DNA from: Brachybacterium alimentarium
Lineage (GTDB): Bacteria > Actinomycetota > Actinomycetes > Actinomycetales > Dermabacteraceae
DNA: 64,000 bases
Reading direction: 5' to 3'
Assembly (NCBI RefSeq): GCF_002332425.1
Contig: NZ_NRGS01000022.1
Coordinates: 210,187 to 274,186 of the forward strand
Within the stretch, counting starts at the first letter, position 1. Every line of letters starts with the position of its first letter. Positions 6,541-64,000 of this stretch are shown here, one piece after another. The notes beneath the pieces were generated by a model that was not told where the DNA came from, made no database searches, and worked only from the letters and a program-made list of their open reading frames with translations. A program made the position numbers and the translations under genes.

Positions 6541-6546
6541 TATATT
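6541..6546 (+). promoter_or_regulatory. Probable -10 box of tRNA-Leu
   Basis: TATATT is a strikingly AT-rich hexamer in very GC-rich DNA, 26 bases upstream of the mature tRNA. TGCGAC at 6516 could be a weak -35 with a 19-base spacer. Confidence 0.55.
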
Positions 6547-6571
6547 TCTCGAGTCGCAGAGGCGGCCACTC

Positions 6572-6657: not shown

Positions 6658-6663
6658 CGGAAC

Positions 6664-6705
6664 AACCCCTTCTGATCGGTGAGAGCCGATCAGGAGGGGT
6701 TTCTT
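6664..6705 (+). terminator. Intrinsic terminator after tRNA-Leu
   Basis: A 16-bp stem (6664-6679 with 6686-6701, one G-T pair) around a six-base loop ends in TTTCTTC. It lies seven bases past the tRNA discriminator. Confidence 0.85.
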
Positions 6706-6798
6706 CATTCCTCAGGCTGCGCGTCCGATTCCCCAGGCAGCGTGCCCAGGACGGCCCCGCCATCCATCGCTGGCGCGTGATGCATCGCCGGCCCGTGG

Positions 6799-6804
6799 AA
6801 GAAT
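6799..6804 (+). promoter_or_regulatory. Candidate -10 box for leaderless trmL
   Basis: AAGAAT is separated by exactly six bases from ATG 6811, which would put transcription start at the start codon. The first base departs from TANNNT, so the call is weaker than for other genes in this window. Confidence 0.4.
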
Positions 6805-6810
6805 CGCTCC

Positions 6811-8135: not shown

Positions 8136-8156
8136 TCCCGCCGGGCCGGCCCGAAC

Positions 8157-8741: not shown

Positions 8742-8779
8742 CGCAGCGGCGGTGCGACCGGCCCTCCCGCGGGCGGTGC

Positions 8780-9076
8780 TCAGTACATCAGGAAGTCGTC
8801 GAGCGTGGATTCGACGCGGATGATGCGCCGACGCAGCCAGACCTTCTTGCCGCCACCGAGGTAGACGCGGGTCCGGGCGTGCTCCCAGCGGCCGTACTCG
8901 GCTTGCTCCGTGAGCGTGCGACGCACCTGCCCGACGGAGCTCTCGCGCGGGACCGTGATGATCTGGAACTCGTAGTCGGCGGGACGGCGTCCCCGCTCGA
9001 CCGGGAGGTCACGCAGCCCGCGCGGGTCACGGATGTGTTCGATGCGGGCCGCCAAGGGCTTGTGAAGTGGGGGCAC
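8780..9076 (-). CDS. DUF5703 family protein
   Basis: A 98-residue soluble protein of a small actinobacterial family (DUF5703) of unknown function. The conserved core is seen as YEFQIITVPRESSVGQVR, EQAEYGRWEHARTRVYLGGG and KKVWLRRRIIRV, which looks like a small beta-rich fold with a basic C-terminus. GTG 9076 is well supported by AGGAGG five bases upstream. The first 30 residues are an extension not typical of the family. It is divergent from the Asp-rich gene at 9166. Confidence 0.75.
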   Translation of the reverse strand: MPPLHKPLAARIEHIRDPRGLRDLPVERGRRPADYEFQIITVPRESSVGQVRRTLTEQAEYGRWEHARTRVYLGGGKKVWLRRRIIRVESTLDDFLMY

Positions 9077-9153
9077 TGCCGTCCTCCTGGGGTCGTGGGT
9101 GCTGAGTCATGGGTGTTCGTCGGTCCCTCTGTCCATTCTGCCTCCGGACGGGG

Positions 9154-9159
9154 TACCGT
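9154..9159 (+). promoter_or_regulatory. Candidate -10 box for leaderless gene 9166
   Basis: TACCGT followed by exactly six bases and then ATG 9166. No Shine-Dalgarno sequence is present, consistent with a leaderless transcript. Confidence 0.5.
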
Positions 9160-9165
9160 CCACTC

Positions 9166-9495
9166 ATGAACTCGGATCCTCGCTCTGCTCTCGCTGCGCT
9201 GATCGCTGCCCTCGAACGTCACTACGAGGCGGCCGCCGCCTCCCGGGATGACGACGATCCCGCCCTGGACGCTGCTACCGACCAGCTCACCACGGCCTTC
9301 GACAACTACGACGATGCGCTGTTCGACGCCTACGACATCGCCACTCCTCTCATCGTGTTCGACACCGATGAGGACGACGACGAGGACGATGACGACGACT
9401 TCGATGATCTGGACGACCTCGACGATCTCGATGACGACGCGATCGACGACGACGACGAGAGCGACGAGGACGACAGCGGCACCGACGTGCGCTGA
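9166..9495 (+). CDS. Unknown protein with an Asp-rich C-terminus
   Basis: A 109-residue protein that I do not recognise. Residues 1-65 look like a helical domain (SALAALIAALERHYEAAAAS, ATDQLTTAFDNYDDALFDAY). From about residue 66 the chain is almost only Asp and Glu with DDLDDLDDLDDD runs, giving a very low pI. ATG 9166 is preferred over GTG 9109 because a -10-like box sits six bases upstream. The low-complexity DNA is coding repetition of GAC/GAT, not an array. It is transcribed divergently from the DUF5703 gene. Nucleic-acid mimicry or cation binding would fit the composition but is speculation. Confidence 0.65.
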   Translation: MNSDPRSALAALIAALERHYEAAAASRDDDDPALDAATDQLTTAFDNYDDALFDAYDIATPLIVFDTDEDDDEDDDDDFDDLDDLDDLDDDAIDDDDESDEDDSGTDVR

Positions 9496-9538
9496 GCCCC
9501 TCACCGACACTGCACGTCATCTTCACCACTGCTCCCTC

Positions 9539-9569
9539 CGCGGCGCCGGGCACACTGCCCGGCGCCGCG
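9539..9569 (+). terminator. Hairpin terminator before uppP
   Basis: A perfect 14-bp stem, 9539-9552 with 9556-9569, has a three-base CAC loop. No T-run follows, so it is a GC-type terminator or barrier after the Asp-rich gene. Confidence 0.6.
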
Positions 9570-9575
9570 TACTCT
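9570..9575 (+). promoter_or_regulatory. Candidate -10 box for uppP
   Basis: TACTCT directly abuts the hairpin and would give a leader of about 55 bases before ATG 9635. Confidence 0.35.
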
Positions 9576-9634
9576 GTCCGGGGTCGATGAACGCGTCGGC
9601 CTGTTGAAGCGGTCGTCGTCCCCGAGGAGTGTCC

Positions 9635-10507
9635 ATGTCGTTCATCGAGGCGATCGTCCTGGGGCTGGTCCAGGGCCTCACCGAATTCCTCCCCATCTCC
9701 TCGAGCGCCCACGTGCGTGTGGCCGGCGAGCTGATGGCACCCGGCCAGGACCCGGGGGCGGCCTTCACCGCGATCATCCAGCTGGGCACCGAGGCCGCGG
9801 TCCTGATCTACTTCTGGAAGGACATCACCCGGATCATCGGGAAGTGGTTCAAGGCGCTGGCCGGGAAGGTCCCGCACTCCGATCCGGACGTGCGCATGGG
9901 CTGGCTCGTGATCATCGGCTCCATCCCGATCGGTGTGCTGGGCCTGCTGTTCGAGAGTCAGATCGACCACAGCCTGCGGAACCTCTACATCACCGCGACC
10001 ATGCTGATCCTCTTCGGCATCCTGCTCGGCTTCGCGGACCGCATCGCCCCGCAGCGCAAGGAGCTCACGAACCTCACGGTGCGCGACGGCATCCTCTTCG
10101 GCCTCGCCCAGGCCCTGGCGCTGATCCCCGGCGTCTCCCGTTCCGGCGGCACCATCACGGCCGGACTGCTCATGGGCTACACCCGCCAGGCCGCCGCCCG
10201 CTACGCCTTCCTGCTCGCGATCCCCGCCGTCTTCGCCTCGGGGCTGTACAAGGCCGCGAAGGAGGTGCCCGTCCTGCTGACCACGGACGGCCACGCCGCG
10301 GCGGCCGCGGCCGGTGAGCCGTCGCTGCTGGCGATGGCCCTGTCGACCGCGGTGGCCTTCGCGGTCGGCTATGCGGTGATCGTCTGGTTCATGAAGATCA
10401 TCGAGAACCGCTCGTACCTGATGTTCGTCGCCTACCGCGTCGTCGCTGGAGTCATCCTGCTGGCGCTGCTGTGGTCCGGCGTGATCGATCCCCTGGCCGG
10501 CGCCTGA
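9635..10507 (+). CDS. uppP: Undecaprenyl-diphosphatase
   Basis: Integral membrane phosphatase that recycles undecaprenyl diphosphate to the monophosphate carrier for peptidoglycan synthesis, and can confer bacitracin tolerance. The 290-residue protein has both signature regions, [17 protein letters not shown] (about residues 10-26) and [12 protein letters not shown], and about eight hydrophobic helices. ATG 9635 is chosen over GTG 9629 because GAGGAG lies five bases before it. A 35-residue loop between the last helices is acidic and Ala-rich. Followed by mshC on the same strand, which has its own promoter. Confidence 0.95.
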
Positions 10508-10547
10508 GACGAGTGCCACGCGTGCTCCTCGTCCTCGTCCCGGACCG

Positions 10548-10553
10548 TATGAT
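10548..10553 (+). promoter_or_regulatory. -10 box for leaderless mshC
   Basis: TATGAT then exactly six bases then GTG 10560. There is no Shine-Dalgarno sequence, so mRNA probably starts at or next to the start codon. Confidence 0.6.
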
Positions 10554-10559
10554 CGAACG

Positions 10560-11837
10560 GTGCATTCCTGGACCTCCCCCTCGCTCTCGCCCCTTCCCGC
10601 TTCCGGCCTGCCGCTGAGGCTGCATGACACCCGGACCGGTCGGGTCGCGCCGCAGATCCCGCTGACTCCCGGCCTTGCCCGGGTGTACGTCTGCGGGCTC
10701 ACCCCGTACGACGCGACGCACCTGGGCCACGCCGCGACCTATCACGCCGCCGATCTCATGCGTCGAGCCCTGCGGGACACCGGCCACGAGGTCGAGGTGG
10801 CCCAGAACATCACCGACGTCGACGACCCGCTGCTCGAACGCGCGACCCGTGACGGGGTGGACTGGCGCGACCTCGCCGCCTCCCAGACGGCACTGTTCGC
10901 CGAGGACATGGAAGCGCTGCGGATCATCGCCCCGGAGACCTATCGCTCGGTGAGCGAGTCGATGGACGGCATCATCGAGACCGTGAGCGCGCTGCAGGCC
11001 CGCGGCCGCGCCTACCAGGTCCCCACCCCGGACGCCGAGGGAGAGGACTGGTACCTCGATCTCGCGGCCGACGGCGCACTGGGCGGCGTCTCCGGCTGGA
11101 GCGAGCAGCAGATGCTCGCGGTGTTCGCCGAGCGCGGTGGAGATCCGGAGCGCCCGGGCAAGCGGGGGATCTTCGATCCGCTGGTGTGGCGCGCCGAGCG
11201 GGAGGGGGAGCCCGCGTGGGACTCCGAGGTGCTCGGTCGGGGTCGCCCCGGCTGGCACGTCGAGTGCGTCTGCATCGCCGAGGAGGGGCTCGGGCTGCCC
11301 TTCGACATCCAGGCCGGCGGCAGCGACCTGATCTTCCCCCACCATGACCTGAGCGCCGCCCATGCGGTGGCCCTGGGTCGCGGCTTCGCGAGCACCTACA
11401 CCCACAGCGGCATGGTCGCCCACGACGGCGAGAAGATGAGCAAGTCGCTGGGGAACCTCGTCTTCGTGCATCGGCTCGTGCGTGACGGCATGGACCCGAT
11501 GACGGTGCGACTGGTGCTCATGGCCCACCACTACCGGGCAGATTGGGCCTGGTCCGAGGACGAGGTCGCGCTCGCCCAGTCGCGCCTGGAAACGTACCGC
11601 GCGGCCGCTGCGGCCGGTGGTCACCATCCGCGCACGGTCGAGGCGCTGCGCGCCGCGCTGCGCGAGGACCTGGACACTCCCACAGCGCTCACCGAGCTCG
11701 ACGCCTGGGCGCAGGCCCTGCGGGCGGTGGACGGGTCCCTCCCGGTCGACACGTCGGCTCCGTCCGGGCCGACGGACGCCCCTGGAGACGTCGCGGCAGC
11801 CGCCGACGCCCTGTTCGGGCTGGATCTGCGCGGCTGA
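10560..11837 (+). CDS. mshC: Mycothiol ligase MshC (L-cysteine:GlcN-Ins ligase)
   Basis: Joins cysteine to GlcN-inositol using ATP in mycothiol synthesis; the enzyme derives from class I cysteinyl-tRNA synthetase. In 425 residues the catalytic motifs are YVCGLTPYDATHLGHA (zinc-ligand C45, HIGH-like 53-58) and GEKMSKSLGN (KMSKS 292-296). Other zinc-site residues are in WHVECVCIAE and GSDLIFPHHDLS. The C-terminal anticodon-binding domain of CysRS is missing, as expected for MshC rather than CysS. GTG 10560 fits the family N-terminus (HSWTSP) and the leaderless promoter. It is convergent with the PAC2 gene, as in many Actinomycetota. Confidence 0.94.
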   Translation: MHSWTSPSLSPLPASGLPLRLHDTRTGRVAPQIPLTPGLARVYVCGLTPYDATHLGHAATYHAADLMRRALRDTGHEVEVAQNITDVDDPLLERATRDGVDWRDLAASQTALFAEDMEALRIIAPETYRSVSESMDGIIETVSALQARGRAYQVPTPDAEGEDWYLDLAADGALGGVSGWSEQQMLAVFAERGGDPERPGKRGIFDPLVWRAEREGEPAWDSEVLGRGRPGWHVECVCIAEEGLGLPFDIQAGGSDLIFPHHDLSAAHAVALGRGFASTYTHSGMVAHDGEKMSKSLGNLVFVHRLVRDGMDPMTVRLVLMAHHYRADWAWSEDEVALAQSRLETYRAAAAAGGHHPRTVEALRAALREDLDTPTALTELDAWAQALRAVDGSLPVDTSAPSGPTDAPGDVAAAADALFGLDLRG

Positions 11838-11841
11838 TCCC

Positions 11842-11909
11842 GAGCGGGCCGGCTCACTGCGCGGACTGGCTCACTGCGCGGACTGGCTCACTCCGCGGGC
11901 CGGCTCACT
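11842..11909 (+). repeat. Four tandem 17-bp repeats between mshC and the PAC2 gene
   Basis: Four head-to-tail copies of a 17-bp unit (consensus GCGCGGACTGGCTCACT) lie at 11842-11858, 11859-11875, 11876-11892 and 11893-11909. Copies 2 and 3 are identical; copies 1 and 4 differ at a few positions. The array fills the convergent gap, and copy 4 contains the PAC2 stop codon (TCA on this strand). No stem-loop terminator is seen here. Confidence 0.85.
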
Positions 11910-12714
11910 CCGACTCTCGGCGCCGACGCAGGAACTGCTCGAACTCCTTGGCGATCGCCTCGCCGCTCGCCTCCGGGAGCTCGGCGGCATCCTGTGCGCG
12001 CTCCAAGCGGCGCACGTAGTCCGCGACGTCCTCGTCGGTCCGTGCCAGCTCATCGACCCCGCGTTCCCACGCCTCGGCGTCCTCGACCAGCTCGGCGATC
12101 GGGATCGGCGCGCTGATCAGTCCCTGCACCTCACGGATCAGCCCGAGCACGGCCTTGGGGGAGGCGTTCTGGGAGACGTAGTGGGGAACCTGCACCCACA
12201 CGTTCGTGGTCGGCAGGCCCGCGCTCGCAGTGCGGCGGGCAAGGATCGTCGGCACCCCGATCGGACCCGAATACAGCTCGGAGCCGTCGGGCCGCCCGTC
12301 CCGACCCTGCTCGGTCGCCGAGGAGACCGGCAGCGGCCGCGTGTGCGGAGAATCCGCCAGGAGCGCTCCCAGCGAGATCACGGAGGTCACGCCGAGCGCC
12401 TGCATCTGCTCGAGCACCTCGTCGCAGAAGCTCTTCCAGTGCAGCGACGGCTCGGGTCCGAACACCGTCACCAGCTCGGGGCCGCGAGGAGGCTGCATGA
12501 TGCGCAGCTCGGTATCGGGCCAGTCGACCACCCGTTCCCCGTCCTCGGTGGTGCGGATCTCGGGGCGATTGACCTGGAAGTCGATGTACTCCTCCGCATC
12601 GACTGCCCCGACCAGCCGGGACGGCCACACCTCGAGCAGATGCTCGATCACCCCGCTGGCGGCTTCTCCGGCGTCGTTCCATCCGCTGAAAGCCGTGATG
12701 GCGATTCGACTCAT
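11905..12714 (-). CDS. PAC2 family protein
   Basis: A 269-residue member of the PAC2 family, named after the eukaryotic proteasome assembly chaperone 2; the bacterial role is unknown. Family features are ITAFSGWNDAGEAASG at the N-terminus, the SVISLGALLADSPHTRPLPV segment and GPIGVPTILARRTASAGLP. The C-terminus is a charged helix. It lies beside mshC and upstream of the M50-trmI-arc region, as in many actinobacteria. A TATGAT box six bases before the ATG suggests a leaderless mRNA, although GGAGAG in that gap could also bind ribosomes. The stop codon falls inside a tandem repeat. Confidence 0.88.
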   Translation of the reverse strand: MSRIAITAFSGWNDAGEAASGVIEHLLEVWPSRLVGAVDAEEYIDFQVNRPEIRTTEDGERVVDWPDTELRIMQPPRGPELVTVFGPEPSLHWKSFCDEVLEQMQALGVTSVISLGALLADSPHTRPLPVSSATEQGRDGRPDGSELYSGPIGVPTILARRTASAGLPTTNVWVQVPHYVSQNASPKAVLGLIREVQGLISAPIPIAELVEDAEAWERGVDELARTDEDVADYVRRLERAQDAAELPEASGEAIAKEFEQFLRRRRESE

Positions 12715-12720
12715 CTCTCC

Positions 12721-12726
12721 ATCATA
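12721..12726 (-). promoter_or_regulatory. -10 box for the PAC2 gene
   Basis: TATGAT on the minus strand, six bases from ATG 12714. Confidence 0.55.
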
Positions 12727-12818
12727 GGGTCCGCCCGAGGCTCCGAGCCGGGGTGCAGGAGCAGCCGATATCCTCGGCCTGCGCCGGGACCCTCAGCCCG
12801 GCATCGGAGGAGACCACC

Positions 12819-13937
12819 ATGAAGAGCCCCACGCTGCGCCTCGGCTCGCTGCCGCCGATCCGCGTCAGCCCGGGAACGCTCGTCACCGTGCTGGTGCTCG
12901 CCCTGATCCTGTACCCGTCCTTCTCCGGTCCCGGCGACGTGCTCTCCGTGCCTGCCGCGCTGCTCGCGCTGGGCATCGCACTGTTCATGATCGTCTCCGT
13001 CCTGGTGCACGAAGGAGCGCACGCGCTCAGCGCTCGCGCCTTCGGGGCGACGGTCGACCACATCGCGCTGACCCTGTGGGGAGGACACACCCAGTACCGC
13101 GGCAAGGAGATGTCCGCGCGTGCATCGGTCGCGATCTCGCTGGCCGGACCGGTGAGCAATCTCGCCCTGGCACTGGTCGCTCTCGGCGCGGAGTCCGTGT
13201 CGGGCCCCGGCACGGCGGCCGCCGTCTTCTGGTCGTTCTGCGCACGCCTCAACATCGCCCTGGCCGTGTTCAACCTGCTCCCGGGCCTGCCCATGGACGG
13301 CGGCCGAGCAGTGGAGGCGCTGCTCGGGGGAGTGCTGCGCAACCCGCTGCTGGGCACCCGCGTGACCGCCTGGACGGGACGCGCCCTCGCCCTCGCCGTG
13401 GTGGCGATCCCGCTGTGGTGGATCGTGCGCGCCGAGGGCGCCGGCATGTTCCTGCTGCTCACCCTGGTCTGGGCGATGCTCATCGCCGGGATGCTGTGGC
13501 AGGGCGCCTCCAGCGCGCTGCACGCGGCCACCCTGCAGCGGCGCGTCGACACACTCGACGCCCTCGACCTCGTCCGCCCCCTCCGCCTGGTGACCCCACA
13601 GCAGACGCTCTCGAGCCTGGGCAGCGAGGCGGAGCTCACGAACGTCCTGGTCCTGGAGCAGCGGGCCATCCGCCCCGGCGTCGTCGGCCGGGCCTACCGG
13701 ATCCTCCCGGAGGCCGTCGCCGCGGTGCCGTCGGCCCATCGCGAGCGGACGCCGGCCAGCGCGGTGGCGGGTCCGGTCGGCGAGGTCGGTCTCCTGGACG
13801 CCTCCCTGCGCGGCAGCGAGCTGGTCTCGGCGATGCTCGCCCTGCCCGTCCCCGTCTACCTCGCGATGGGGGAACCGGGTCAGATCCGGGGCATCATCCT
13901 GAGCGACGATGTCAACGACCTCCTGCGCGGTCGGTGA
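12819..13937 (+). CDS. Site-2 protease family (M50) membrane metalloprotease
   Basis: A 372-residue intramembrane zinc protease candidate. The zinc motif HEGAH is at 64-68 (H64, E65, H68) and the third ligand is D160 in NLLPGLPMDGGR, both within predicted helices as in S2P enzymes. About six hydrophobic helices fill the first 230 residues, and the C-terminal 140 are soluble and CBS-like in position, though I cannot confirm CBS motifs. ATG 12819 has GGAGGAG upstream. It precedes trmI and the pup cluster, a conserved actinobacterial neighbour. Substrate is unknown; anti-sigma factors are usual for the family. Confidence 0.87.
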   Translation: MKSPTLRLGSLPPIRVSPGTLVTVLVLALILYPSFSGPGDVLSVPAALLALGIALFMIVSVLVHEGAHALSARAFGATVDHIALTLWGGHTQYRGKEMSARASVAISLAGPVSNLALALVALGAESVSGPGTAAAVFWSFCARLNIALAVFNLLPGLPMDGGRAVEALLGGVLRNPLLGTRVTAWTGRALALAVVAIPLWWIVRAEGAGMFLLLTLVWAMLIAGMLWQGASSALHAATLQRRVDTLDALDLVRPLRLVTPQQTLSSLGSEAELTNVLVLEQRAIRPGVVGRAYRILPEAVAAVPSAHRERTPASAVAGPVGEVGLLDASLRGSELVSAMLALPVPVYLAMGEPGQIRGIILSDDVNDLLRGR

Positions 13938-13977
13938 CCAACATGACTCTTCGACGCAGACGTCTCACGGTGCGTCA

Positions 13978-13983
13978 TATGCT
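13978..13983 (+). promoter_or_regulatory. -10 box for leaderless trmI and the pup cluster
   Basis: TATGCT then six bases then ATG 13990. It may drive trmI and the downstream arc-dop-pup-pafA genes. Confidence 0.55.
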
Positions 13984-13989
13984 GGACGC

Positions 13990-15060
13990 ATGACTGATCA
14001 GCCGCAGCCGCCCGCCGCCCCTGACGAGGCTCCGGCCGCTGCTCCCCGCCCGTCCGGTCGGGGCCTGGACCGCACCGGTCCCTTCGAGATCGGCGACAAG
14101 GTGCAGCTCGCCGACGCCAAGAACCGTCTGCACACGATCACCCTCAAGGAGGGCGGGGAGTTCCACACCCATCGCGGTGTGCTCCGCCATGATCAGCTGA
14201 TCGGTGCCGAGGACGGCGTCGTGGTCGAGGACCTCCACGGCACCCGCTACCAGGCGCTGCGCCCGCTGTACTCCGACTACATGCTCGCGATGCCGCGGGG
14301 CGCCGCGATCATCTACCCCAAGGACTCCGCCCAGATCCTCATGTGGGGCGACATCTTCCCCGGCGCCCGGGTGCTCGAGGCCGGCGTCGGCTCCGGCGGA
14401 CTGACCACGGCCCTGCTGCGCGCCGTCGGGCCCGAGGGCACCGTGCACTCCATCGAGCGCCGCGAGGACTTCGCCGAGGTGGCGCGCGAGAACGTCGAGA
14501 CCTACTTCGGTGGCCCGCACCCCGCGTGGGACCTCTCGGTCGGCGACTTCCAGGACCTCGCCCCGACGCTGTCCCCGGGGGAGCCCGCGGTGGACCGGGT
14601 GGTGCTGGACATGCTCGCCCCGTGGGAATGCGTGGACGCCGCCGCCGAGGTGCTCGTCTCCGGAGGCGTCTACCTCGCCTACGTCGCCACGGTCACCCAG
14701 CTCTCCCGCACGGCCGAGGCCCTGCGGGCCCACGGCGAGTTCACCGAGCCGTACGCCTGGGAGAGCTTCGTGCGGCCCTGGCACCTCGAGGGTCTCGCCG
14801 TGCGCCCCGAGCACCGGATGAACGCCCACACCGGGTTCCTGCTCACCGCCCGGCGCACCGCGCACGGCACGCAGGCGCTGACCCGGGTGACCCGACCGGC
14901 GCCGGGCTCCCGTCTCGAGGAGGAGCTGAACCACCCCGACAACGAGGGCTTCGGCGGCTCCGATGCCGAGTGGGGACCGCAGGACGTGGGCGAGCGCGGT
15001 GTGGCCCCGCGCAAGCTGAAGCGGGCCCTGCGGGACATCCGCCAGGGCCGCGATCGCTGA
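13990..15060 (+). CDS. trmI: tRNA (adenine-N1)-methyltransferase TrmI
   Basis: SAM-dependent enzyme that makes m1A58 in the tRNA T-loop. The protein has 356 residues: a Pro/Ala-rich N-terminal tail of about 28, the TrmI beta domain, then the Rossmann domain with VLEAGVGSGGLTTALL and the catalytic VVLDMLAPWE. The RMNAHTGFLLTARR tail segment is also family-typical. It stands directly upstream of the ARC ATPase gene (39-bp gap), the usual place in pup-containing actinobacteria. Confidence 0.92.
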   Translation: MTDQPQPPAAPDEAPAAAPRPSGRGLDRTGPFEIGDKVQLADAKNRLHTITLKEGGEFHTHRGVLRHDQLIGAEDGVVVEDLHGTRYQALRPLYSDYMLAMPRGAAIIYPKDSAQILMWGDIFPGARVLEAGVGSGGLTTALLRAVGPEGTVHSIERREDFAEVARENVETYFGGPHPAWDLSVGDFQDLAPTLSPGEPAVDRVVLDMLAPWECVDAAAEVLVSGGVYLAYVATVTQLSRTAEALRAHGEFTEPYAWESFVRPWHLEGLAVRPEHRMNAHTGFLLTARRTAHGTQALTRVTRPAPGSRLEEELNHPDNEGFGGSDAEWGPQDVGERGVAPRKLKRALRDIRQGRDR

Positions 15061-15099
15061 TCGCCCGCTGACCACCGGCTCAGAACAGGAAGGAGAGGC

Positions 15100-16686
15100 A
15101 TGACGATGAAGACCTACGCGGAGATGACCGCTGAGCTCGAGAAGCTCGCCGCCCACAACGAGCGGCTCGTCGGCGGGCTGCGCAGCGCCCGTGCCCAGAT
15201 CGTCGAGCTCAAGAGCGATCTGGAGCGGGTGGGCGATCCGCCGAACTCCTATGCGACCTTCCTACGCCGCGCCGAGGGCACCACGATCGACGTGCTCCAC
15301 AACGGGCGGCGGCTGCGGGTCGCGACCGCTGCGAGCCTGGACCTCGACGCCCTGCATCCCGGCGCCGAGCTGCGCCTGAACGAGGCCCTGGCCGCCGTCG
15401 AGGCCGTGCCGCCGGGAGACGCCGGCAACGTCGTCCCCGTGGTCGAGTCGCTCGCCGACTCCCGCGTGCTGGTCGCCGTCGCGCCCGACGACACCCGGGT
15501 GCTGCGCCGGGCCGGTGAGCTCGCCGAGGAGGCCCTCCACCCCGGGGACCACGTGCTCGTCGACCTCAAGGCCCAGCTCGTGATGGAGCGGATCGACCGC
15601 GCCGAGATCACCGACCTCGTGCTCGAGCAGGTCCCCGACGTGTCCTTCGAGGAGATCGGCGGGCTCGGCGAGCAGATCGAGGCGATCCGCGACGCCGTGG
15701 AGCTGCCCTTCCTCCAACAGGACCTCTATCGCACCTATGGCCTGCGCCCGCCCCAGGGCGTCCTGCTGTACGGGCCGCCCGGATGCGGCAAGACGATGAT
15801 CGCCAAGGCCGTCGCCCACGAGCTGGTGCTGCGCAGCGCCGAGGTGCGCGGCGTCAGCGTCGCCGAGGCGCTCGAGAACTCCGCGTTCCTCAACGTCAAG
15901 GGACCCGAGCTGCTGAACAAGTACGTCGGCGAGACGGAGCGCTCGATCCGGCTGGTGTTCGAGCGCGCACGGGAGAAGGCCGCCGCGGATCATCCCGTGG
16001 TGATCTTCTTCGACGAGATGGAGGCGCTGTTCCGCACCCGTGGCACGGGCCTGTCCAGCGACGTCGAGACCACGATCGTGCCGCAGCTGCTCGCCGAGAT
16101 CGACGGCGTCGAGGGCCTCGACAACGTCATCGTCATCGGTGCCTCGAACCGTGAGGACATGATCGATCCGGCGATCCTGCGGCCCGGACGCCTCGACGTG
16201 AAGATCCGCGTGCGCCGCCCCAACCAGCGCGCCGGTCGCGAGATCCTGGGCCTCTACCTCGACGACGCCGTCCCCATGCGGGAGAGTCGCGAGGCGCTGC
16301 TGGACGTCGCCGTGCGCGAGATCTACGACGAGGGACCCGACTCCGCGTTCGTACGCCTGGAGTTCTCCGACGGCACCCACGAGACGCTCCACTTCCGGGA
16401 CTTCGTCTCCGGCGCGACGCTGCGGAACATCACCGACCGCGCCAAGAAGCTCGCGGTCAAGGACCAGCTCTCCACCGGCAGCGTGGGCCTCACCTCCCAG
16501 CACCTGATCGACGCGATCACCGCCGAGTTCGTCGAGAACGAGGACATGCCCTCCGCCGCCCATCCCGAGGATTGGGCACGCATCTCCGGGACCCCGGGCG
16601 GCTCGCGCCGACGGGTGGAGGCGGTGGTGCCGCTCCAGGGCCGCTCCCGCGCGGCCGACGCGAGCTTCGAGGAGGACCAGCGGTGA
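15100..16686 (+). CDS. arc: AAA ATPase ARC/Mpa of the Pup pathway
   Basis: Hexameric AAA+ unfoldase that recognises pupylated proteins. In 528 residues: an N-terminal coiled coil (about 1-45) that captures Pup, OB domains, then the AAA module with Walker A GPPGCGKT (225-232) and Walker [10 protein letters not shown] (D305, E306). In organisms with a 20S proteasome the protein ends in GQYL, which docks into the proteasome. Here it ends in ASFEEDQR, so that docking tail is absent, as in the proteasome-free ARC of corynebacteria. RBS AGGAAGGAGAG precedes the ATG. The stop overlaps the dop start (GTGA). Confidence 0.95.
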
Positions 16687-56770: not shown

Positions 56771-57676
56771 GTGGAGTCCACACAGCTGCATCGGATCACG
56801 GACCTCTCGGATCCGGCCCTGGACGACTACCTGCGCATGACCGATGTGCGCCTGCGGTCCCGCGTCGAGGTCGAGCGGGGCCTGTTCATGGCCGAGAGCT
56901 ACGAGGTCATCTCCCGCGCGATCGACGCCGGCATGGCACCGCGCTCCTTCCTCATGGGCGAGAAGTGGCTCGAGAAGTTCGCGCCGCTGTACACGCCCTT
57001 CCCCGAGGTCCCGGTGTATGTCGGGGCAGAGCCGCTGATCGAGCAGCTCACCGGCTTCCATCTGCACCGCGGCGCGCTGGCCGCCATGCAGCGTCCGCAG
57101 CTGCCCGAGGTGGCCGAGGTGCTGCGCACCGCCCGCACCGTCGCCGTCATCGAGGACATCGTCGACCACACCAACGTGTGTGGTCCCAAACTAGCCCATC
57201 CGGAACCCGCCGCCGAGCCTCGCAGACGCAGTCGGATCGCGGTGCTGGAGGGGCTCGTTGACCATACCAACGTCGGCAGCGCCTTCCGCAATGCCGCAGC
57301 CCTGGGCCTCGATGCGGTGCTGGTGTCTCCGACCTGCGCTGACCCACTCTACCGACGCGCGGTGCGGGTCTCGATGGGCACGGTCTTCCAAGTGCCGTGG
57401 ACGCGGATCCCCGAGTGGGAGAAGGGCATTGCGGGGCTCAAGGCGGCTGGCTACGTCCTGGCCGGCATGACGCTGGGGGAGGGCGCGATCACCCTCGACG
57501 AGCTCGTGGCCGAGGACCACGAGAACCTCGCTCTCGTGTTCGGCACCGAAGGCCACGGCATCACCCCGGAGACGGACGCGCTGCTCGATCGCCGGGTCAC
57601 GATTCCGATGATGGGCGGAGTCGACTCGTTGAACGTGACGGCAGCAGCAGCCGTGGCGTTCTACGCGACGAGGTGA
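56771..57676 (+). CDS. SpoU/TrmH-family methyltransferase with an in-frame duplication
   Basis: SPOUT RNA 2'-O-methyltransferase of 301 residues. The N-terminal substrate domain (RVEVERGLFMAESYEVISRA) is normal. At residues 124-136 the knotted domain begins VAVIEDIVDHTNV, but then reads 19 unrelated residues and begins again as IAVLEGLVDHTNV (156-168). After that it continues normally (GSAFRNAAALG, LVFGTEGHGI, IPMMGGVDSLNVTAAAAVA). So motif 1 is duplicated with an insert, in frame, with no stop. Codons before the junction are strongly G/C-ending; after it A/T-ending codons are frequent. I read it as a recombination chimera at an island border. Activity is uncertain. Confidence 0.85.
   Translation: MESTQLHRITDLSDPALDDYLRMTDVRLRSRVEVERGLFMAESYEVISRAIDAGMAPRSFLMGEKWLEKFAPLYTPFPEVPVYVGAEPLIEQLTGFHLHRGALAAMQRPQLPEVAEVLRTARTVAVIEDIVDHTNVCGPKLAHPEPAAEPRRRSRIAVLEGLVDHTNVGSAFRNAAALGLDAVLVSPTCADPLYRRAVRVSMGTVFQVPWTRIPEWEKGIAGLKAAGYVLAGMTLGEGAITLDELVAEDHENLALVFGTEGHGITPETDALLDRRVTIPMMGGVDSLNVTAAAAVAFYATR
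57140..57274 (+). repeat. Imperfect 39-bp direct repeat in the methyltransferase gene (island junction)
   Basis: 57140-57178 encodes VAVIEDIVDHTNV and 57236-57274 encodes IAVLEGLVDHTNV, offset by 96 bp. The copies differ at many third positions, so they are not a recent simple duplication; they look like two alleles joined. The 57 bp between (57179-57235) has no coding match to the family and is the likely scar or element end. Confidence 0.8.
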
Positions 57677-57771
57677 TGATGGCTGGAATCCCGAGTGTCA
57701 GTCGTGCCCGATATCGTGAGAGCAAACCACCCAACACCGTGATTGCGCAGTGGCGCGGAGGAGACAGACCT

Positions 57772-59343
57772 ATGGCACCGACGACCAAAGAGGCGCAGCG
57801 AGCAGAGTTGCACAAGACGATCTGGCGCATCGCGAACGACCTGCGCGGCAGCGTCGATGGGTGGGACTTCAAGTCCTACGTGCTGGGAATGCTCTTCTAC
57901 CGGTTCATTTCTGAGAACCTCACGGCGTACCTCAACAAGAACGAGCACGACGCGGGCGAGGTGTCGTTTGACTACCGGCTGGCGGCGGATTCTGACGCGG
58001 AGTTCGCTCGCGACGAGGTTGTCGCGGAGAAGGGGTTCTATATCCTGCCGTCCGACCTGTTCGCCAATGTGCGCGATCGTGCCGCGGGCGACGAGAATCT
58101 CAACGAGACGCTCGAGCGGGTCTTCAAGAACATCGAGGCGTCGGCGATGGGTACGGACAGCGAGGACGACATCAAGGGTCTGTTCGATGATCTGGATGTC
58201 AACAGCAACAAGTTGGGCTCGACGGTCGCCAAGCGGAATCAGAAGCTGGTGAAGCTGCTCGACGCGATCGGTGACCTGCCGCTGGGGCGGTGGGAGGACA
58301 ACTCGATCGACCTGTTCGGTGACGCCTACGAGTACCTGATGCAGATGTACGCCGCCAACGCCGGCAAGTCTGGTGGGGAGTACTACACGCCGCAGGAGGT
58401 CTCCGAGCTGCTGGCGCGCATCACGGTGGTCGGCAAGAAGCAGGTCAACAAGGTCTACGACCCGGCGGTGGGCTCCGGGTCGCTGCTGCTGAAGTTCGAC
58501 AAGGTGCTCGGCAAGAACAACGTCCGACAGGGGTTCTACGGTCAGGAGATCAACCTGACCACGTACAACCTCGCGCGGATCAACATGTTCCTGCACGACG
58601 TCAACTACGCCGATTTCAACCTCGCCCACGGCGACACCCTGACCGATCCACAGCACTGGGATGACGAGCCGTTCGAGGCGATCGTCTCCAACCCGCCTTA
58701 CTCGATCAAGTGGGACGGCGACGCTAACCCACTGCTCATCAATGATGAACGGTTCGCACCGGCAGGAGTCCTCGCGCCGAAGTCGAAGGCCGACCTCGCG
58801 TTCACGATGCACATGCTCAGCTGGTTGGCGGTGAACGGCACGGCAGCGATCGTCGAGTTCCCTGGAGTGCTGTATCGCGGGGGAGCGGAGAGGAAGATTC
58901 GGCAGTACCTCGTTGACAACAACTACATCGATACCGTGATCCAGTTGCCGCCCGACCTGTTCTTCGGCACGACGATCGCGACCTGCATCCTCGTGCTGAA
59001 GAAGTCGAAGAAGACCGGCGACGTGCTGTTCATCGATGCTTCGGCGGAGTTCAAGCGGGTCGGCAACAAGAACAAGCTGCTCGAGGAGCACCAGGCGAGG
59101 ATCCTCGAGGCGTTCACGACGCGCGAGCCCGAGGACTACTTCACCACCGTCGTGAGCAACGAGGACATTGCCGCCAACGACTACAACATCGCGGTGTCGT
59201 CGTATGTAGAGGCCGAGGACACTCGCGAGGAAGTCGACATCGCGGAGTTGAACGCCGAGATCGCGCGCATCGTCGCGCGCCAGGCCGAGCTCCGCACCGC
59301 AATCGACGAGATCGTGGCGGATCTGGAAGGTGCGCGGTCATGA
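57772..59343 (+). CDS. hsdM: Type I restriction-modification DNA methyltransferase, M subunit
   Basis: Adenine-N6 methyltransferase subunit of a type I system. The 523-residue length and N-terminus (IWRIANDLRGSVDGWDFKSY, MLFYRFISENL) match the type IC (EcoR124-like) branch. The SAM motif is DPAVGSGSLL (from D230) and the catalytic NPPY is at N307 in VSNPPYSIKW. GGAGGAG lies before ATG 57772. The frame is open upstream, but no earlier start has an RBS. Codon third positions are less G/C-biased than upstream genes. Its stop overlaps the mrr start (ATGA). Confidence 0.95.
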   Translation: MAPTTKEAQRAELHKTIWRIANDLRGSVDGWDFKSYVLGMLFYRFISENLTAYLNKNEHDAGEVSFDYRLAADSDAEFARDEVVAEKGFYILPSDLFANVRDRAAGDENLNETLERVFKNIEASAMGTDSEDDIKGLFDDLDVNSNKLGSTVAKRNQKLVKLLDAIGDLPLGRWEDNSIDLFGDAYEYLMQMYAANAGKSGGEYYTPQEVSELLARITVVGKKQVNKVYDPAVGSGSLLLKFDKVLGKNNVRQGFYGQEINLTTYNLARINMFLHDVNYADFNLAHGDTLTDPQHWDDEPFEAIVSNPPYSIKWDGDANPLLINDERFAPAGVLAPKSKADLAFTMHMLSWLAVNGTAAIVEFPGVLYRGGAERKIRQYLVDNNYIDTVIQLPPDLFFGTTIATCILVLKKSKKTGDVLFIDASAEFKRVGNKNKLLEEHQARILEAFTTREPEDYFTTVVSNEDIAANDYNIAVSSYVEAEDTREEVDIAELNAEIARIVARQAELRTAIDEIVADLEGARS

Positions 59344-60266
59344 CGGACATGCCCAATTGGGAAGGCTTCATGATCCCGACGCTCAAGGTAATGAGCGATG
59401 GCATCATCCGCCACTGGCGCGAGTTTCAGCCTCTCGTAGCTGATCAGGCGCAGCTCACCGATGAGCAGAAGAAGGAGATGCTTCCGTCCGGGGGCGCGCT
59501 CAAGTATGAGAACCGCATCGGCTGGGGCGTCTCGTTCCTGACGAACGTCGGCGCGCTCAGACGTCCGAAGCGCGGTCACTACCAGATCACTGATGCCGGC
59601 AAGCAGCTCATCGAGCTGTTTCCGAACGGTGCCAAGGAACGTGACATCAAGGCGCTCGGTGCGGATCCCAGCTCGCCGATCCGCGAGTACGTGGCGACTA
59701 CGACCCGCAAGACGAGCGCGCCTGCAATGACCGCTCCGACCGAAGAGTCGTCGATGACTCCTACCGAGCAGGTGCAGAGCGGCATCGAGCGCATCCACGA
59801 CGAGATCGCGGTCGAGCTGCTCACTAGGCTGCAGGACAAAGACCCAGGCTTCTTCGAGCAGGCGGTTGTCGATCTCCTGCTGTCAATGGGCTACGGCGGC
59901 ACCACCGGGGCCGGCAGCGTCACCCAGCTCAGGAACGACGGAGGCATAGACGGTGTCATCGACCAGGACATCCTCGGCCTCAACCGCGTCTACATCCAGG
60001 CCAAGCGTTATCACGACGGCAAAGCTGTCGGACGCCCCGACCTCCAGGCTTTCGTTGGAGCACTCAGCGGTAAAGCCGACAGTGGCGTCTTCATCACGAC
60101 CGGCCGCTTCTCCGACGGCGCACGCACCTACGCCGAGAACGTGCCGACCCGCATCATCCTGATCGACGGCAAGCGCCTCACCAGCCTCATGATCCGGTAC
60201 GGCGTCGGCGTGCAAGTGAAAGAGACCTACAAGGTCGTCGAGATCGACGAGGACTTCTTCGCATGA
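59340..60266 (+). CDS. Mrr-type restriction endonuclease inside the hsd operon
   Basis: A 308-residue protein with the two-part Mrr architecture. The N-terminal winged-helix domain (MIPTLKVMSDGIIRHWREFQ, NRIGWGVSFLTNVGALRRPK) is Mrr_N. The C-terminal PD-(D/E)xK-type domain has the catalytic Asp204 in GGIDGVIDQD and Q220-A-K222 in VYIQAKRYHDG. Mrr enzymes cut methylated DNA. It is translationally coupled to both hsdM (ATGA at 59340) and hsdS (ATGA at 60263), so it is a true member of this operon rather than a passenger. Confidence 0.92.
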   Translation: MTDMPNWEGFMIPTLKVMSDGIIRHWREFQPLVADQAQLTDEQKKEMLPSGGALKYENRIGWGVSFLTNVGALRRPKRGHYQITDAGKQLIELFPNGAKERDIKALGADPSSPIREYVATTTRKTSAPAMTAPTEESSMTPTEQVQSGIERIHDEIAVELLTRLQDKDPGFFEQAVVDLLLSMGYGGTTGAGSVTQLRNDGGIDGVIDQDILGLNRVYIQAKRYHDGKAVGRPDLQAFVGALSGKADSGVFITTGRFSDGARTYAENVPTRIILIDGKRLTSLMIRYGVGVQVKETYKVVEIDEDFFA

Positions 60267-61408
60267 GCCGCATCGATGACCTGATTCAGGAGCTTACTCC
60301 TACGGGCGTGCAGTACTCGCGCGTTGACGAGGTCGCCGTACTGAAACGAGGCACGGCGATCACCAAGAAAAGCGTGGTCGACGGGCCAGTTCCTGTAATT
60401 GCTGGCGGGCGGACTCCTGCATACTTCCACAATGAGAGCAACCGTGCTGGCGAAACTGTGGCGATTGCGGGCTCGGGTGCATACGCCGGATTCGTGAGCT
60501 ACTGGAGCAAACCGATCTACGTGTCCGACGCTTTCACGGTGGTTCCGAAGGACGATCGAGTCAATGCGCGGTATCTCTATTTCTGGCTCCAATCCCAGCA
60601 GGAGCTCCTGCACTCTTTCAAGAGTGGCGGCGGTGTTCCGCATGTCTACCCTCGGAGCGTCTCGGGTATGCGCATCCCGGTGCCGCATCTCGAGGTGCAG
60701 CTCGAGATCGTGCGAGTACTGGATAAGTTCACCCAGCTAGAAGCGGAGCTGGAAGCGGAGCTGGAAGCCCGGAGAACCCAGTACGAGCACTATCGTGCCG
60801 AGTTCCTGACATTCAAGGAAGAAGTTCCCCGCCGCCGTCTGGACGAAGTCGCCGTTTATGCCAACGGTAAGGCCCACGAGAAGCTTGTGGTTGATGGCGC
60901 GGAGATTCCACTTGTGACGGCGCGTTTCATCTCCCGGAATGGTGAAGCCAATCGATACGTACCACTTGCGGACGTGCTCACGCCGGGGCGAACTGGCGAT
61001 GTTGCTCTGGTGCTTAGTGACCTGCCGAATGGGCGGGCCCTGGCGCGGACGTTCTTTGTTGATCGCGACGACAGCTACGCAATCAACCAGCGGGTGGCGC
61101 GGATTACCGTGAAGGAGACTGCAGAGATGAATCCGAAGTTTCTTCACTTTCTGCTCGACCGCAACCGTGGACTACTTAAGCACGACAACGGAGTTGACCA
61201 GACCCACCTGAGTAAGGGGCAGGTAACCGGACTTACGATTCCGGTTCCGAGCATCGAGGAGCAGAACCGAATCGTTGATCGCCTCGAAAGGTTTGACGGC
61301 CTCGTCAACGACATCAGCATCGGCCTCCCGGCTGAGCTCGCTGCTCGTCGCAAGCAGTACGAGCACTATCGCGACCGCCTCCTGACGTTCAAGGAGCTGA
61401 CTGTATGA
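60263..61408 (+). CDS. hsdS: Type I restriction-modification specificity subunit
   Basis: DNA-recognition subunit, 381 residues, with two target-recognition domains (about 15-150 and 190-340). Each is followed by a conserved helix: QLEAELEAELEARRTQYEHY and AARRKQYEHYRDRLLTF. The central spacer holds a 12-bp repeat coding LEAE, the place where EcoR124-type enzymes carry TAEL repeats that set the distance between half-sites. The two TRDs differ from each other, giving an asymmetric bipartite site that cannot be read from sequence. Codon use is the least G/C-biased in the window. Overlaps hsdR by ATGA. Confidence 0.93.
   Translation: MSRIDDLIQELTPTGVQYSRVDEVAVLKRGTAITKKSVVDGPVPVIAGGRTPAYFHNESNRAGETVAIAGSGAYAGFVSYWSKPIYVSDAFTVVPKDDRVNARYLYFWLQSQQELLHSFKSGGGVPHVYPRSVSGMRIPVPHLEVQLEIVRVLDKFTQLEAELEAELEARRTQYEHYRAEFLTFKEEVPRRRLDEVAVYANGKAHEKLVVDGAEIPLVTARFISRNGEANRYVPLADVLTPGRTGDVALVLSDLPNGRALARTFFVDRDDSYAINQRVARITVKETAEMNPKFLHFLLDRNRGLLKHDNGVDQTHLSKGQVTGLTIPVPSIEEQNRIVDRLERFDGLVNDISIGLPAELAARRKQYEHYRDRLLTFKELTV
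60737..60769 (+). repeat. 12-bp tandem repeat in the hsdS central spacer
   Basis: Unit CTGGAAGCGGAG: copy 1 at 60737-60748 (one mismatch), copy 2 at 60749-60760, partial copy 3 at 60761-60769. It codes LEAE LEAE LEA, extending the spacer helix by four residues per unit. Confidence 0.85.
60779..60795 (+). repeat. 17-bp direct repeat in hsdS, copy 1
   Basis: CAGTACGAGCACTATCG is identical to 61355-61371. It codes QYEHYR at the end of each conserved helix and could support recombination that swaps target-recognition domains. Confidence 0.8.
61355..61371 (+). repeat. 17-bp direct repeat in hsdS, copy 2
   Basis: Identical to 60779-60795; see that entry. The second copy lies after the second target-recognition domain near the C-terminus. 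Confidence 0.8.
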
Positions 61409-64000
61409 GCGATGCGCCCGCGCGTACTTTCGATCCGATCGCGGTCTCGTCGGAGAGCACGGTTGTCGCCGAGTATGTTCACGATCCATCGCAGGCTGAT
61501 GCGTATCAGTCGGAGTCTGCACTCGAGAACGAGGTGATCCGGCTCCTCGAGGGGCAGGCGTACGACTACCTGCCGATCACATCGGAGACAGATCTGGTCG
61601 CGAACCTCCGCATGCAGCTCGAGAGGGTCAACAAAATGACCTTCTCGGATGCCGAGTGGGAGCAGTTCTTCACGACGAAGATCGCAAGTGCCAACGACGG
61701 CATCGTCGAGAAGTCAGTCCGCGTCCAGGAGGATCACGTCCAGATCCTCAGGCGCGACGACGGGACGACGAAGAACATCGCGCTGATCGACAAGACGAAC
61801 ATCCACAACAATCAGTTGCAGGTCATCAACCAGTACGAGATCGGACACGGCGAGGATGACGCCGGCGAGGGTCGTGCGAACTACGCCAACCGTTACGACG
61901 TGACCGTGCTCGTCAACGGGCTGCCGATGGTGCACATCGAACTGAAGCGTCGTGGCGTGGACATCCGGGAGGCCTTCAACCAGATCAATCGCTATCAGCG
62001 AGACAGCTTCTGGGCGGGCTCGGGCTTGTTCGAATACGTGCAGCTGTTCGTGATCAGCAACGGCACGCTCACAAAGTACTACTCCAACAGCACCCGCAAC
62101 AGGCACCTTGCCGAGCATATGCAGTCCCGCGCCGGGGCCAGGGGAAAGAAGACAAGCAACTCGTTCGAGTTCACCAGCTGGTGGGCTGATGCGAACAACA
62201 GTCCGATCACCGAACTGACAGCGTTCGTGAAGACGTTCTTCGCGAAGCATGCGCTGTTGAACATCCTGACGAAGTACTGCGTGCTCACCGCAGATCGGGA
62301 CCTGCTGGTGATGCGCCCGTACCAGATCGTCGCGACCGAGCGGATCCTGCAGAAGATCCAAATCTCGACGAACTACAAGACGCTCGGCACACTCGATGCC
62401 GGAGGATACGTCTGGCACACCACCGGCTCAGGCAAGACGCTCACCTCGTTCAAGGCAGCGCAGCTCGCATCGAAGATGCCGAGTGTCGACAAGGTGCTGT
62501 TCGTCGTGGATCGCAAGGACCTCGACTACCAGACGATGCGCGAGTACGACCGGTTCGAGAAGGGTGCGGCGAACTCGAACACGTCCACGGCGATCCTGAA
62601 GAAGCAGCTCGAGGATCCCGGTGCGCGGATCATCATCACGACGATCCAGAAGCTGTCGACGTTCATCAAGGCGAACAAGGGCCACGAGGTGTTCTCCGGC
62701 CACGCGGTGATCATCTTCGATGAGTGCCACAGATCGCAGTTCGGCGACATGCACACCGACATCACGCGCGCGTTCAAACGGTACAACCTGTTCGGGTTCA
62801 CCGGCACGCCAATCTTCGCCGCGAACGCCGGCAGCGGTGGAAATCCTCAGCTGCGCACGACCGAGCAGGCGTTCGGCGACAAGCTGCACACGTACACGAT
62901 CGTCGACGCCATCACGGACAAGAACGTGCTGCCGTTCCGGATCGACTACATCAACACCATCAAGGTCGGGAACCCCAATGACTCACAGGTCTCTGCGATC
63001 GACCGCGAGCGAGCTCTCCTGGACGTGCGTCGGATCCGGGACGTCGTGGCGTACACGCTGGAGCACTTCGATCAGAAGACGAAGCGCTCATCCAGCTACG
63101 AGCACGGAGTTGTGACGAACGTCGCCGACTCGGTGCGGGGTCGGCGTCAGGCGGAGGTACTCAAGGAGCGGAAGCGAGTTCGCGGATTCAACGCGCTGTT
63201 CGCGACCGCGTCGATCGATGCCGCGCGCCGTTACTACAACCAGTTCCAGATGCAGATGGCGGAGCTTCCACCGGACAAGCGCCTGAAGGTCGGGCTGATC
63301 TTCAGCTACGGTGCGAACGAGGCCGAAGCCGACGGCATCCTCGATGATGAAGCGTTCGACACCGATGCGCTCGACCTTGACGCGCGCTCGTTCCTGGAAG
63401 ACGCGATCCAGGACTACAACGACATGTTCGGGACCAGCTACGACACGAGCGCGGACCGGTTTCAGAACTACTACAAGGACCTGTCGCAGCGGATGAAGAA
63501 CCGCGAAATCGACCTGGTCATCGTGGTGAACATGTTCCTCACCGGTTTCGACGCGACGACGCTGAACACGCTGTTCGTCGACAAGAACCTGCGCGCGCAC
63601 GGCCTGATCCAGGCGTACTCGCGCACGAACCGCATCCTCAACTCGGTGAAGACCTACGGCAACATCGTCGCCTTCCGCGATCTCGAGGAGGAGACCAACG
63701 CCGCGTTGGAGCTGTTCGGCAACAAGGATGCCCGCGGCGTCGTCCTGCTGAAACCGTACGGCGACTACTACGGCGAGTACGTCGACAAGGTCACCGAACT
63801 GCTCACGCACTTCCCGATCGGGCAGCAGATCGTGGGGGAGCAGGCGCAGAAGGACTTCATCCAGCTGTTCGGCGCGATCCTGCGGCTGCAGAACATCCTC
63901 ACGTCCTTCGACGACTTCGACGGCAACGATCCGCTCACCGAGCGACAGCGGCAGGACTACACCAGCGTCTACCTGCGGCTACGCGATGAGTTCACGCGCG
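61405..64000 (+). CDS. hsdR: Type I restriction endonuclease R subunit, 3' end outside the window
   Basis: Motor and nuclease subunit. The frame is open from ATG 61405 to the window end (865 residues seen; the family is about 1,040). The PD-(D/E)xK nuclease is D165 in NRYDVTVLVNG with E179 and K181 in HIELKRRG, the same spacing as EcoR124I. Walker A is HTTGSGKTLTSF (GSGKT 341-345) and motif II is IIFDECHRSQFG (from D439); later FGFTGTPIF and MFLTGFDATTLNTLFVDKNL. YQSESALENEV at the start and these motifs match the type IC branch. Last in the coupled operon as seen here. Confidence 0.96.
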   Translation, partial: MSDAPARTFDPIAVSSESTVVAEYVHDPSQADAYQSESALENEVIRLLEGQAYDYLPITSETDLVANLRMQLERVNKMTFSDAEWEQFFTTKIASANDGIVEKSVRVQEDHVQILRRDDGTTKNIALIDKTNIHNNQLQVINQYEIGHGEDDAGEGRANYANRYDVTVLVNGLPMVHIELKRRGVDIREAFNQINRYQRDSFWAGSGLFEYVQLFVISNGTLTKYYSNSTRNRHLAEHMQSRAGARGKKTSNSFEFTSWWADANNSPITELTAFVKTFFAKHALLNILTKYCVLTADRDLLVMRPYQIVATERILQKIQISTNYKTLGTLDAGGYVWHTTGSGKTLTSFKAAQLASKMPSVDKVLFVVDRKDLDYQTMREYDRFEKGAANSNTSTAILKKQLEDPGARIIITTIQKLSTFIKANKGHEVFSGHAVIIFDECHRSQFGDMHTDITRAFKRYNLFGFTGTPIFAANAGSGGNPQLRTTEQAFGDKLHTYTIVDAITDKNVLPFRIDYINTIKVGNPNDSQVSAIDRERALLDVRRIRDVVAYTLEHFDQKTKRSSSYEHGVVTNVADSVRGRRQAEVLKERKRVRGFNALFATASIDAARRYYNQFQMQMAELPPDKRLKVGLIFSYGANEAEADGILDDEAFDTDALDLDARSFLEDAIQDYNDMFGTSYDTSADRFQNYYKDLSQRMKNREIDLVIVVNMFLTGFDATTLNTLFVDKNLRAHGLIQAYSRTNRILNSVKTYGNIVAFRDLEEETNAALELFGNKDARGVVLLKPYGDYYGEYVDKVTELLTHFPIGQQIVGEQAQKDFIQLFGAILRLQNILTSFDDFDGNDPLTERQRQDYTSVYLRLRDEFTR

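Follow-up and report, generated by a model that had tools for sequence, protein, structure and literature searches.

The closest known systems to the element described here are the SCC islands at rlmH, e14 in icd, and the CIMEs (cis-mobilizable elements). In E. coli, e14 and phage 21 insert within a core gene, icd, and replace its 3' end; they are prophages with a tyrosine integrase, about 50 codons are replaced, and one host group is concerned. Type I restriction-modification (RM) systems are present in some SCC cassettes. In PMC5704250, a serine-type insertion of IMEs inside rumA, an rRNA methyltransferase gene, is reported to disrupt that gene, and CIMEs are described as elements with missing integration genes that keep attL and attR. 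In M. abscessus, the serine-integrase site attB-29 falls at the sixth codon of a SpoU-like methyltransferase gene, and reconstitution of the gene is reported as unclear (PMC10654092). As for the phages and hosts met below, the main text of the Kamino paper (PMC11536984) contains no match for TrmH or attB, the accessible part of the B. aurantiacum mobilome study (PMC6579920) contains none for methyltransferase, and that of the Vanseggelen/Verabelle paper (PMC10656467) gives no description of the SpoU site or of the element. No published account of this site or element was found in the literature searched, a scope outside which most subscription journals fall.

We call “the window” the whole stretch of 64,000 nucleotides that was analysed, contig C22:210187-274186 of a 67-contig genome (G000). 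An insertion into a SpoU/RlmB-like gene was found there. The insertion is precise, the reading frame across it is continuous, and the same unit is present in six genomes. It is probably a site-specific integrative defence element, inserted by a recombinase in trans, with its target gene rebuilt as a chimera.

A SpoU gene with a doubled motif and a displaced half

The open reading frame at 56771-57676 (301 aa) reads through VDHTNV (57161-57178), continues for 19 residues, enters IAVLEGLVDHTNV (57236-57274) and goes onward to its stop, which confirms the original observation of a SpoU gene with VDHTNV repeated after 19 residues. The gene matches PF00588 (SpoU_methylase, Pfam, E 1.9e-33), and the structure model of its product matches RlmB/RlmR/AviRb-type 23S rRNA methyltransferases (best E 2.1e-17). 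Residues N167, R173, E260, S286 and N288, in columns that we take to be catalytic, are invariant across a 22-sequence alignment. The two 39-bp copies of the motif, 96 bp apart, have 28 of 39 bases in common and differ at the other 11. The proposal of two joined alleles, and not a slip duplication, was right in substance. Nine of the 13 codons are unlike, five of these being synonymous. In a control at the same 96-bp offset, 4 of 63,000 window pairs equalled the motif match, a count that includes the motif pair itself and its shifted neighbours. Among 45 family loci (41 genes read, the window, G027, and two genes truncated at the end of a contig, G031 and G032), the doubled motif occurs only in the window and in G035, which has an island of its own.

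A shift of codon bias at the junction had also been announced. In the 5' half and the displaced half described below, GC3 stands at 0.934 and 0.936, against 0.526 for the 19-codon spacer and 0.863 for the 3' half borne by the element. Over the stretch from 57.0 to 58.2 kb, G+C drops from about 0.70 to about 0.60. As a single change point in codon usage, codon 57179 exactly scores best, but it is not significant alone, as 161 of 2000 shuffles equal it. The effect is weaker than announced, and codon bias on its own is a weak argument for joined alleles.

The native 5' half of this SpoU/RlmB-like 23S rRNA 2'-O-methyltransferase gene (56771..57178, + strand) encodes the N-terminal domain and the host's first SPOUT strand, and its protein shares up to 91% identity with the corresponding halves in genus members whose site is empty. 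The crossover core AACGT, whose left copy (attL) lies at 57173..57177 (+), is common to the left and right junctions in all six element copies; its right copy, past the window end, is at C22:275462-275466. At that place, after hsdR and one small ORF, a second SPOUT 3' half is present (match C22:275453-275866, frame open to a stop at 275884). A displaced native 3' half with G/C-ending codons had been foreseen at the far end of the island, and this one, C22:275462-275884, has a GC3 of 0.936 and groups in trees with the native type of the genus. When the window flanks are joined, they form a complete normal gene, whose 294-bp alignments to G002 and G008 (89.1%, best two) contain 0 gaps, as do those to other empty-site relatives; in relatives lacking hsd genes, the gene is uninterrupted. 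Since the displaced half is 8.1 kb away and the joined flanks have no gaps, 8103 bp were inserted at AACGT and nothing was lost. The displaced half and the gapless empty-site alignment also back the view that an element entered the gene and supplied a replacement 3' half.

The integrated element runs on the + strand from 57178 to 64000 in the window and onward to C22:275461 (8103 bp core to core). Its left end is an in-frame spacer of 19 codons (TGTGGTCCCAAACTA..., 57179..57235, +), the first 30 bp of which are identical in four of the six copies, with few changes in the other two. The replacement 3' half, a complete SPOUT catalytic domain (PF00588) of the mobile clade B, comes next (57236..57676, +). 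Still on the + strand follow hsdM, a type I methyltransferase (57772..59343; TIGR00497, PF02384), an Mrr-type methyl-directed type IV restriction enzyme (59340..60266; PF04471, PF14338; PADLOC mREase_IV; matched in five of six copies), the hsdS specificity subunit (60263..61408; PF01420), and an EcoR124-like hsdR (61405..64000, cut by the window end and complete at L007 8592-11726; PF12008, TIGR00348). The type I RM operon noted downstream is there: profile matches find hsdR, hsdM and hsdS all present and intact, plus the type IV Mrr. The most variable part of the element is hsdS, with windows averaging 47-71% identity between copies. A 65-nt stretch is repeated inside hsdS (60263-61408), with 74% likeness, and might allow its specificity to switch.

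Between hsdR and the displaced half, on the opposite strand, lies orf101, a 101-aa ORF. Profile searches assign it to no family, PHROGs (run on orf101 and the chimera only) gave no match, and viral contigs contain none; it is modelled as a small alpha/beta fold (pLDDT 83) with no significant structural match (best E 0.19). The right-end DNA of the element has no match in phages or viral contigs, and a single uninformative 27-bp match in plasmids. It includes about 300 bp of apparently non-coding DNA (L007 12140-12460), 98.3-100% identical across the six hosts, in which a search for an RNA family, a promoter or a terminator found no match. RNA families were absent from the element up to E 0.1, relaxase and conjugation genes from the island genes by Pfam, and the window island has no integrase beside attR and no phage genes.

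The chimeric frame is open in all six copies, the 5' part of the Kocuria one being cut by a contig end. In an AlphaFold model of the chimera made with the 22-sequence alignment (pLDDT 80.5), residues 125-149, which correspond to the host first strand and the spacer, are disordered (pLDDT <50), and strand 154-159, the element's own, begins the SPOUT domain. The element thus supplies a whole domain, and the host strand is left as a linker. We infer that the chimera would be functional.

Distribution of the element, its domain and other islands

The window 3' half was compared with 396 genomes at the level of the order, which we take to be named Micrococcales; 383 had a match. It is 96% identical in G082 and G192 (Brevibacterium aurantiacum), from two other families, where the whole island is present and about 93% identical outside hsdS. 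An exact scan of a species-genome collection for the 24-nt right terminus returned four stretches, in Kocuria subflava, Arsenicicoccus bolidensis, Brevibacterium aurantiacum and Leucobacter chironomi, and all four hosts have the chimeric gene and the displaced half, 8-9 kb apart. The six genomes are those of the window, G082, G192 (B. aurantiacum), K. subflava, A. bolidensis and L. chironomi. G082 may itself be a Leucobacter. As the window flanks have a likeness of 56-72% to those of the five other hosts, versus 80-89% for many genus members, the element appears to span at least five genera.

Element length ranges from 8103 to 9194 bp. Over the 15 host pairs, mean identity is 59.8% for the host 5' flank and 67.2% for the displaced half, as compared with 94.3% for the carried 3' region, 92.4% for hsdM and 99.4% (range 98.7-100%) for the last 700 bp. 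Between the window and G082, the right 736 bp round to 100% identity (bits 1315; self 1328), and the last 700 bp, once aligned, are 99.6% identical. Carried DNA so much more alike than the host flanks points to transfers, and not to inheritance. The carried 3' half (15 pairs) and hsdM each have a dN/dS ratio of 0.08; that of hsdR, like that of mrr (5 copies), is about 0.11. The carried SPOUT domain is under purifying selection. For orf101 (dN 0.0044, dS 0.0045), changes are too few to judge selection. Because dS is 0.20 in the 3' half and 0.31 in hsdM, versus 0.0045 in orf101, the left part is older than the right end, and the copies are mosaic. Homologous exchange may account for part of the similarity between copies. 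Cargo genes come and go as modules: the Arsenicicoccus copy lacks mrr, and both this copy and the Kocuria one have an additional 355-aa gene, with a weak AAA match, between hsdS and hsdR.

In the family genomes, 3' halves form two clades, A and B (support 100/99; among 43 rows, 29 are A, 11 are B and 3 are ungrouped). On the 5'-half tree the B label is scattered, with 10 changes versus 9.8 for random labels, and at least four of them forced by well-supported branches. A 70-row tree was extended to other families and phages, and omits 8 of the 19 order-level front halves, the third copy of G279 and the incomplete G027, G031 and G032; the element-borne halves lie there in one clade of 31 rows (100/99). 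Outside clade B are the 3' halves of phages Sitrop and Kamino, and the displaced halves of the window, G020, G093, G127 and the Brevibacterium, Arsenicicoccus and Kocuria hosts. Inside it are the displaced halves of G082, Leucobacter, G035 and G153, in which, by this tree, the B type is native or earlier acquired. The replacement domain is, as far as tree placement tells, a member of one mobile clade scattered across hosts.

Other islands were found at the same site, two more groups among them. In G040, from another genus of the same family, the same four-gene RM operon lies behind a B-type gene, but no complete displaced half is present. G052 has hsdM, hsdS and hsdR of the window type, and G042 has split remnants of a window-type hsdM next to a different type I RM. 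A second group, G035, G127 and G093, has in common another hsdR-hsdS-hsdM operon, and an OLD/AriA-like 569-aa gene is 99% identical between G035 and G127. At their left ends, the islands of G020 (46 kb) and G153 (22 kb) closely resemble each other; the G153 cargo is made of transporters and regulators, with no defence. Read by eye, the G020 island (L038-L040) also consists of transporters and regulators, and its right end has a gene pair resembling a PIN toxin and its partner, a pair which also adjoins the G040 RM operon.

In G308, Wadjet (JetA-D) and an AbiEii-like gene lie behind a B-type gene, which suggests that the site might be a general defence hotspot. On L130 of this genome a complete Wadjet (JetA2-D2) occupies 8277-16295 (- strand), and a broken further 3' half stands about 9.5 kb on. 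In G279 (L122, reverse complement, ~2300-11840), three 3' halves stand in a row, two of them near-equal full copies, with an ISL3-type transposase between 3' halves; this looks like stacked insertions. A Pfam search of 20 of the 23 called ORFs of G153 and 8 of the 10 island ORFs of G279 found DDE transposases (IS481 and ISL3 types) as the only recombinases.

Junctions, recombinases and alternative explanations

In each of the six copies, the single pair of junctions shares 6-7 bp, and the block common to all is AACGT. The G127 junctions imply that only AAC is shared, and those of G035 share 10 bp, CCAACGTGGG. Tyrosine recombinases need an overlap of about 6-8 bp, and serine recombinases have a 2-bp overlap. 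The short common block (AACGT, or AAC in G127) thus favours a serine recombinase and disfavours a tyrosine one, on the assumption of an identical crossover in every copy and no mutation since; the serine type is the most likely. Dyad symmetry is pronounced in the attP of Sitrop and Kamino (0 and 11 of 1000 shuffles as good, 25-bp arms), and has no shuffle support in the attP of G035 or G020, the G020 figure being only indicative because the site is one base short. In the reconstructed window attP, a dyad ACCACA...TGTGGT was dropped, as 434 of 1000 shuffles were as good (12-bp arms).

Searching 16 genomes in full with PF00239 gave island matches in G035, G127 and G093 only, all catalytically degenerate, and no intact serine recombinase in any island. 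PF00589, searched in 5 genomes, had no match inside an island; the five matches of the window genome are all on other contigs. This genome has no match to PF07508, and one weak partial match to PF00239, on another contig. A helper recombinase was not found with PF00589 (5 genomes), PF07508 (47 family genomes) or PF00239 (16 genomes). Relatives of the Kamino integrase gave 41 matches in 38 of the 396 order genomes, and among the 30 loci listed of these 41 matches, none was flanked by a SpoU half. Kocuria, Arsenicicoccus and Leucobacter have in common a family of large serine recombinases (50-57% identity), which was rejected as the helper: in Leucobacter the gene is 127 kb away from the site, and in Kocuria and Arsenicicoccus it is on another contig.

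Beside attR in G035, G127 and G093 lies a 193-195-aa gene of the DNA-invertase family, in the place and orientation of an integrase (L126:11093-11680, -; L123:3614-4195, +; G035 right end), with a remnant in G042. By eye against DNA-invertase alignments, the position of the catalytic serine is occupied by G, G and T, and all three genes lack two catalytic arginines (G035 judged by its likeness to G127), these residues presumably having the roles they have in the DNA-invertase family. With dN/dS values of 0.28 (G035-G127) and 0.37 (G127-G093), this degenerate recombinase is apparently kept by purifying selection though inactive. It may be a site-recognition protein that would work with a borrowed catalyst. 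Relatives with serine and arginines intact are found in B. aurantiacum (L198) and in G397, the latter 1 kb from a distant orf101 homologue.

We propose that a recombinase in trans, most likely of the serine type, would join the element end to the chromosomal SpoU/RlmB-like gene at its conserved AAC-GT (Asn-Val) codons. The 3' half of the host gene would be cut off and moved to the far end of the island, and the open in-frame spacer with the complete SPOUT domain at the start of the element would rebuild the target as a chimera. The cargo, a type I RM usually accompanied by Mrr, would defend the host and reward retention. The island itself would still be mobile. A broader scheme, which we put forward only tentatively, is that such islands are defence satellites without catalysis: they would retain only their att ends, the rebuilt target domain and a small end protein recognising the site (orf101 in the window group, the dead serine recombinase in another), and phages or mobile elements would lend them an active serine recombinase. 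The SPOUT domain that they carry would itself be mobile, and would have repeatedly replaced the catalytic half of a housekeeping rRNA methyltransferase across Micrococcales.

An unlikely alternative, yet the one that survives best, is a decayed prophage, ICE or IME, whose serine integrase would have entered with the element and been deleted later, leaving a CIME. Sitrop and Kamino have the same layout with an integrase on the attR side, a degenerate serine recombinase stands at that very spot in G035, G127 and G093, with its remnant in G042, and CIMEs are already described (PMC5704250). However, six genomes have the same core (3' half, hsdM, hsdS, hsdR, orf101) and termini with no recombinase, and a single ancestral loss before spread is simpler than six losses; spread after loss of the integrase implies that the unit still moves. 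As to a CIME derived by decay of an ICE or IME and moved in cis by a later element, no adjoining element with an integrase was seen, and the recurrence of the unit in six genomes argues for movement as is.

Insertion by a tyrosine recombinase, either the host XerCD or a borrowed integrase, is improbable. Xer-exploiting elements without a recombinase of their own do exist, G000 has its five PF00589 matches on other contigs, and each single junction pair shares 6-7 bp, but the common block shrinks to 5 bp in the six copies and to 3 bp (AAC) in G127. Homologous recombination in the flanking SpoU halves, with no site-specific recombinase, we hold to be improbable too: the flanks are indeed conserved coding sequence, and divergence is far lower at the right end than at the left, as expected of gene conversion, yet element identity ends at the core on both sides in all six copies, host flanks are only 50-76% alike, and the first insertion would be left in need of explanation. 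A tandem slip duplication or an assembly artefact, as the repeat 96 bp apart might evoke, is refuted by the 11 of 39 differing bases, the further partial gene 8 kb off and the five other assemblies alike.

Comparison with known systems

The site-specific element proposed here would tie a defence hotspot to a conserved translation gene, since type I RM, Wadjet and OLD-like islands enter one rRNA methyltransferase codon and leave the gene with a full reading frame. It offers a clean testable case of a multi-genus island in which no recombinase is recognised, and of mobile elements that take a catalytic domain along with them. As the two halves have different histories, gene trees of the SpoU/RlmB-like enzyme can mislead. 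The signature of doubled motif and displaced half could be used to find integrase-less islands that are missed by integrase-based searches.

As in e14/icd, the insertion is in a core gene whose 3' end is replaced; unlike e14, the window element is not a tyrosine prophage. In the Streptomyces phages Sitrop and Kamino (Camvirus), attP is directly followed by the 3' half of this gene, which is open and in frame and has a VDHTN of its own, and the window element likewise has its replacement 3' half directly after attP. Integration of such a phage at the SpoU codon would yield the doubled VDHTN motif. These are 48-kb phages with a serine integrase, whereas the window island has neither integrase nor phage genes.

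SCCmec and ECC islands at rlmH, as described in PMC6222049, share with our element a target in the SPOUT methyltransferase superfamily and a variable cargo; they use serine recombinases and leave remnants at the site, as islands do at the SpoU site. Their target is RlmH, entered at the 3' end of rlmH, whereas the window target is a PF00588 SpoU/RlmB-like gene, entered mid-gene. Unlike SCC/ECC, the window element replaces a whole catalytic domain, and it has no ccr-like gene (five genes belong to other families, orf101 to none). By contrast with attB-29 at the sixth codon, the window site lies mid-gene and involves domain replacement. Like a CIME, the window island keeps attL and attR, integration and transfer genes being absent. 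Finally, where the IMEs in rumA are reported to disrupt their rRNA methyltransferase gene, the window element restores its full reading frame.
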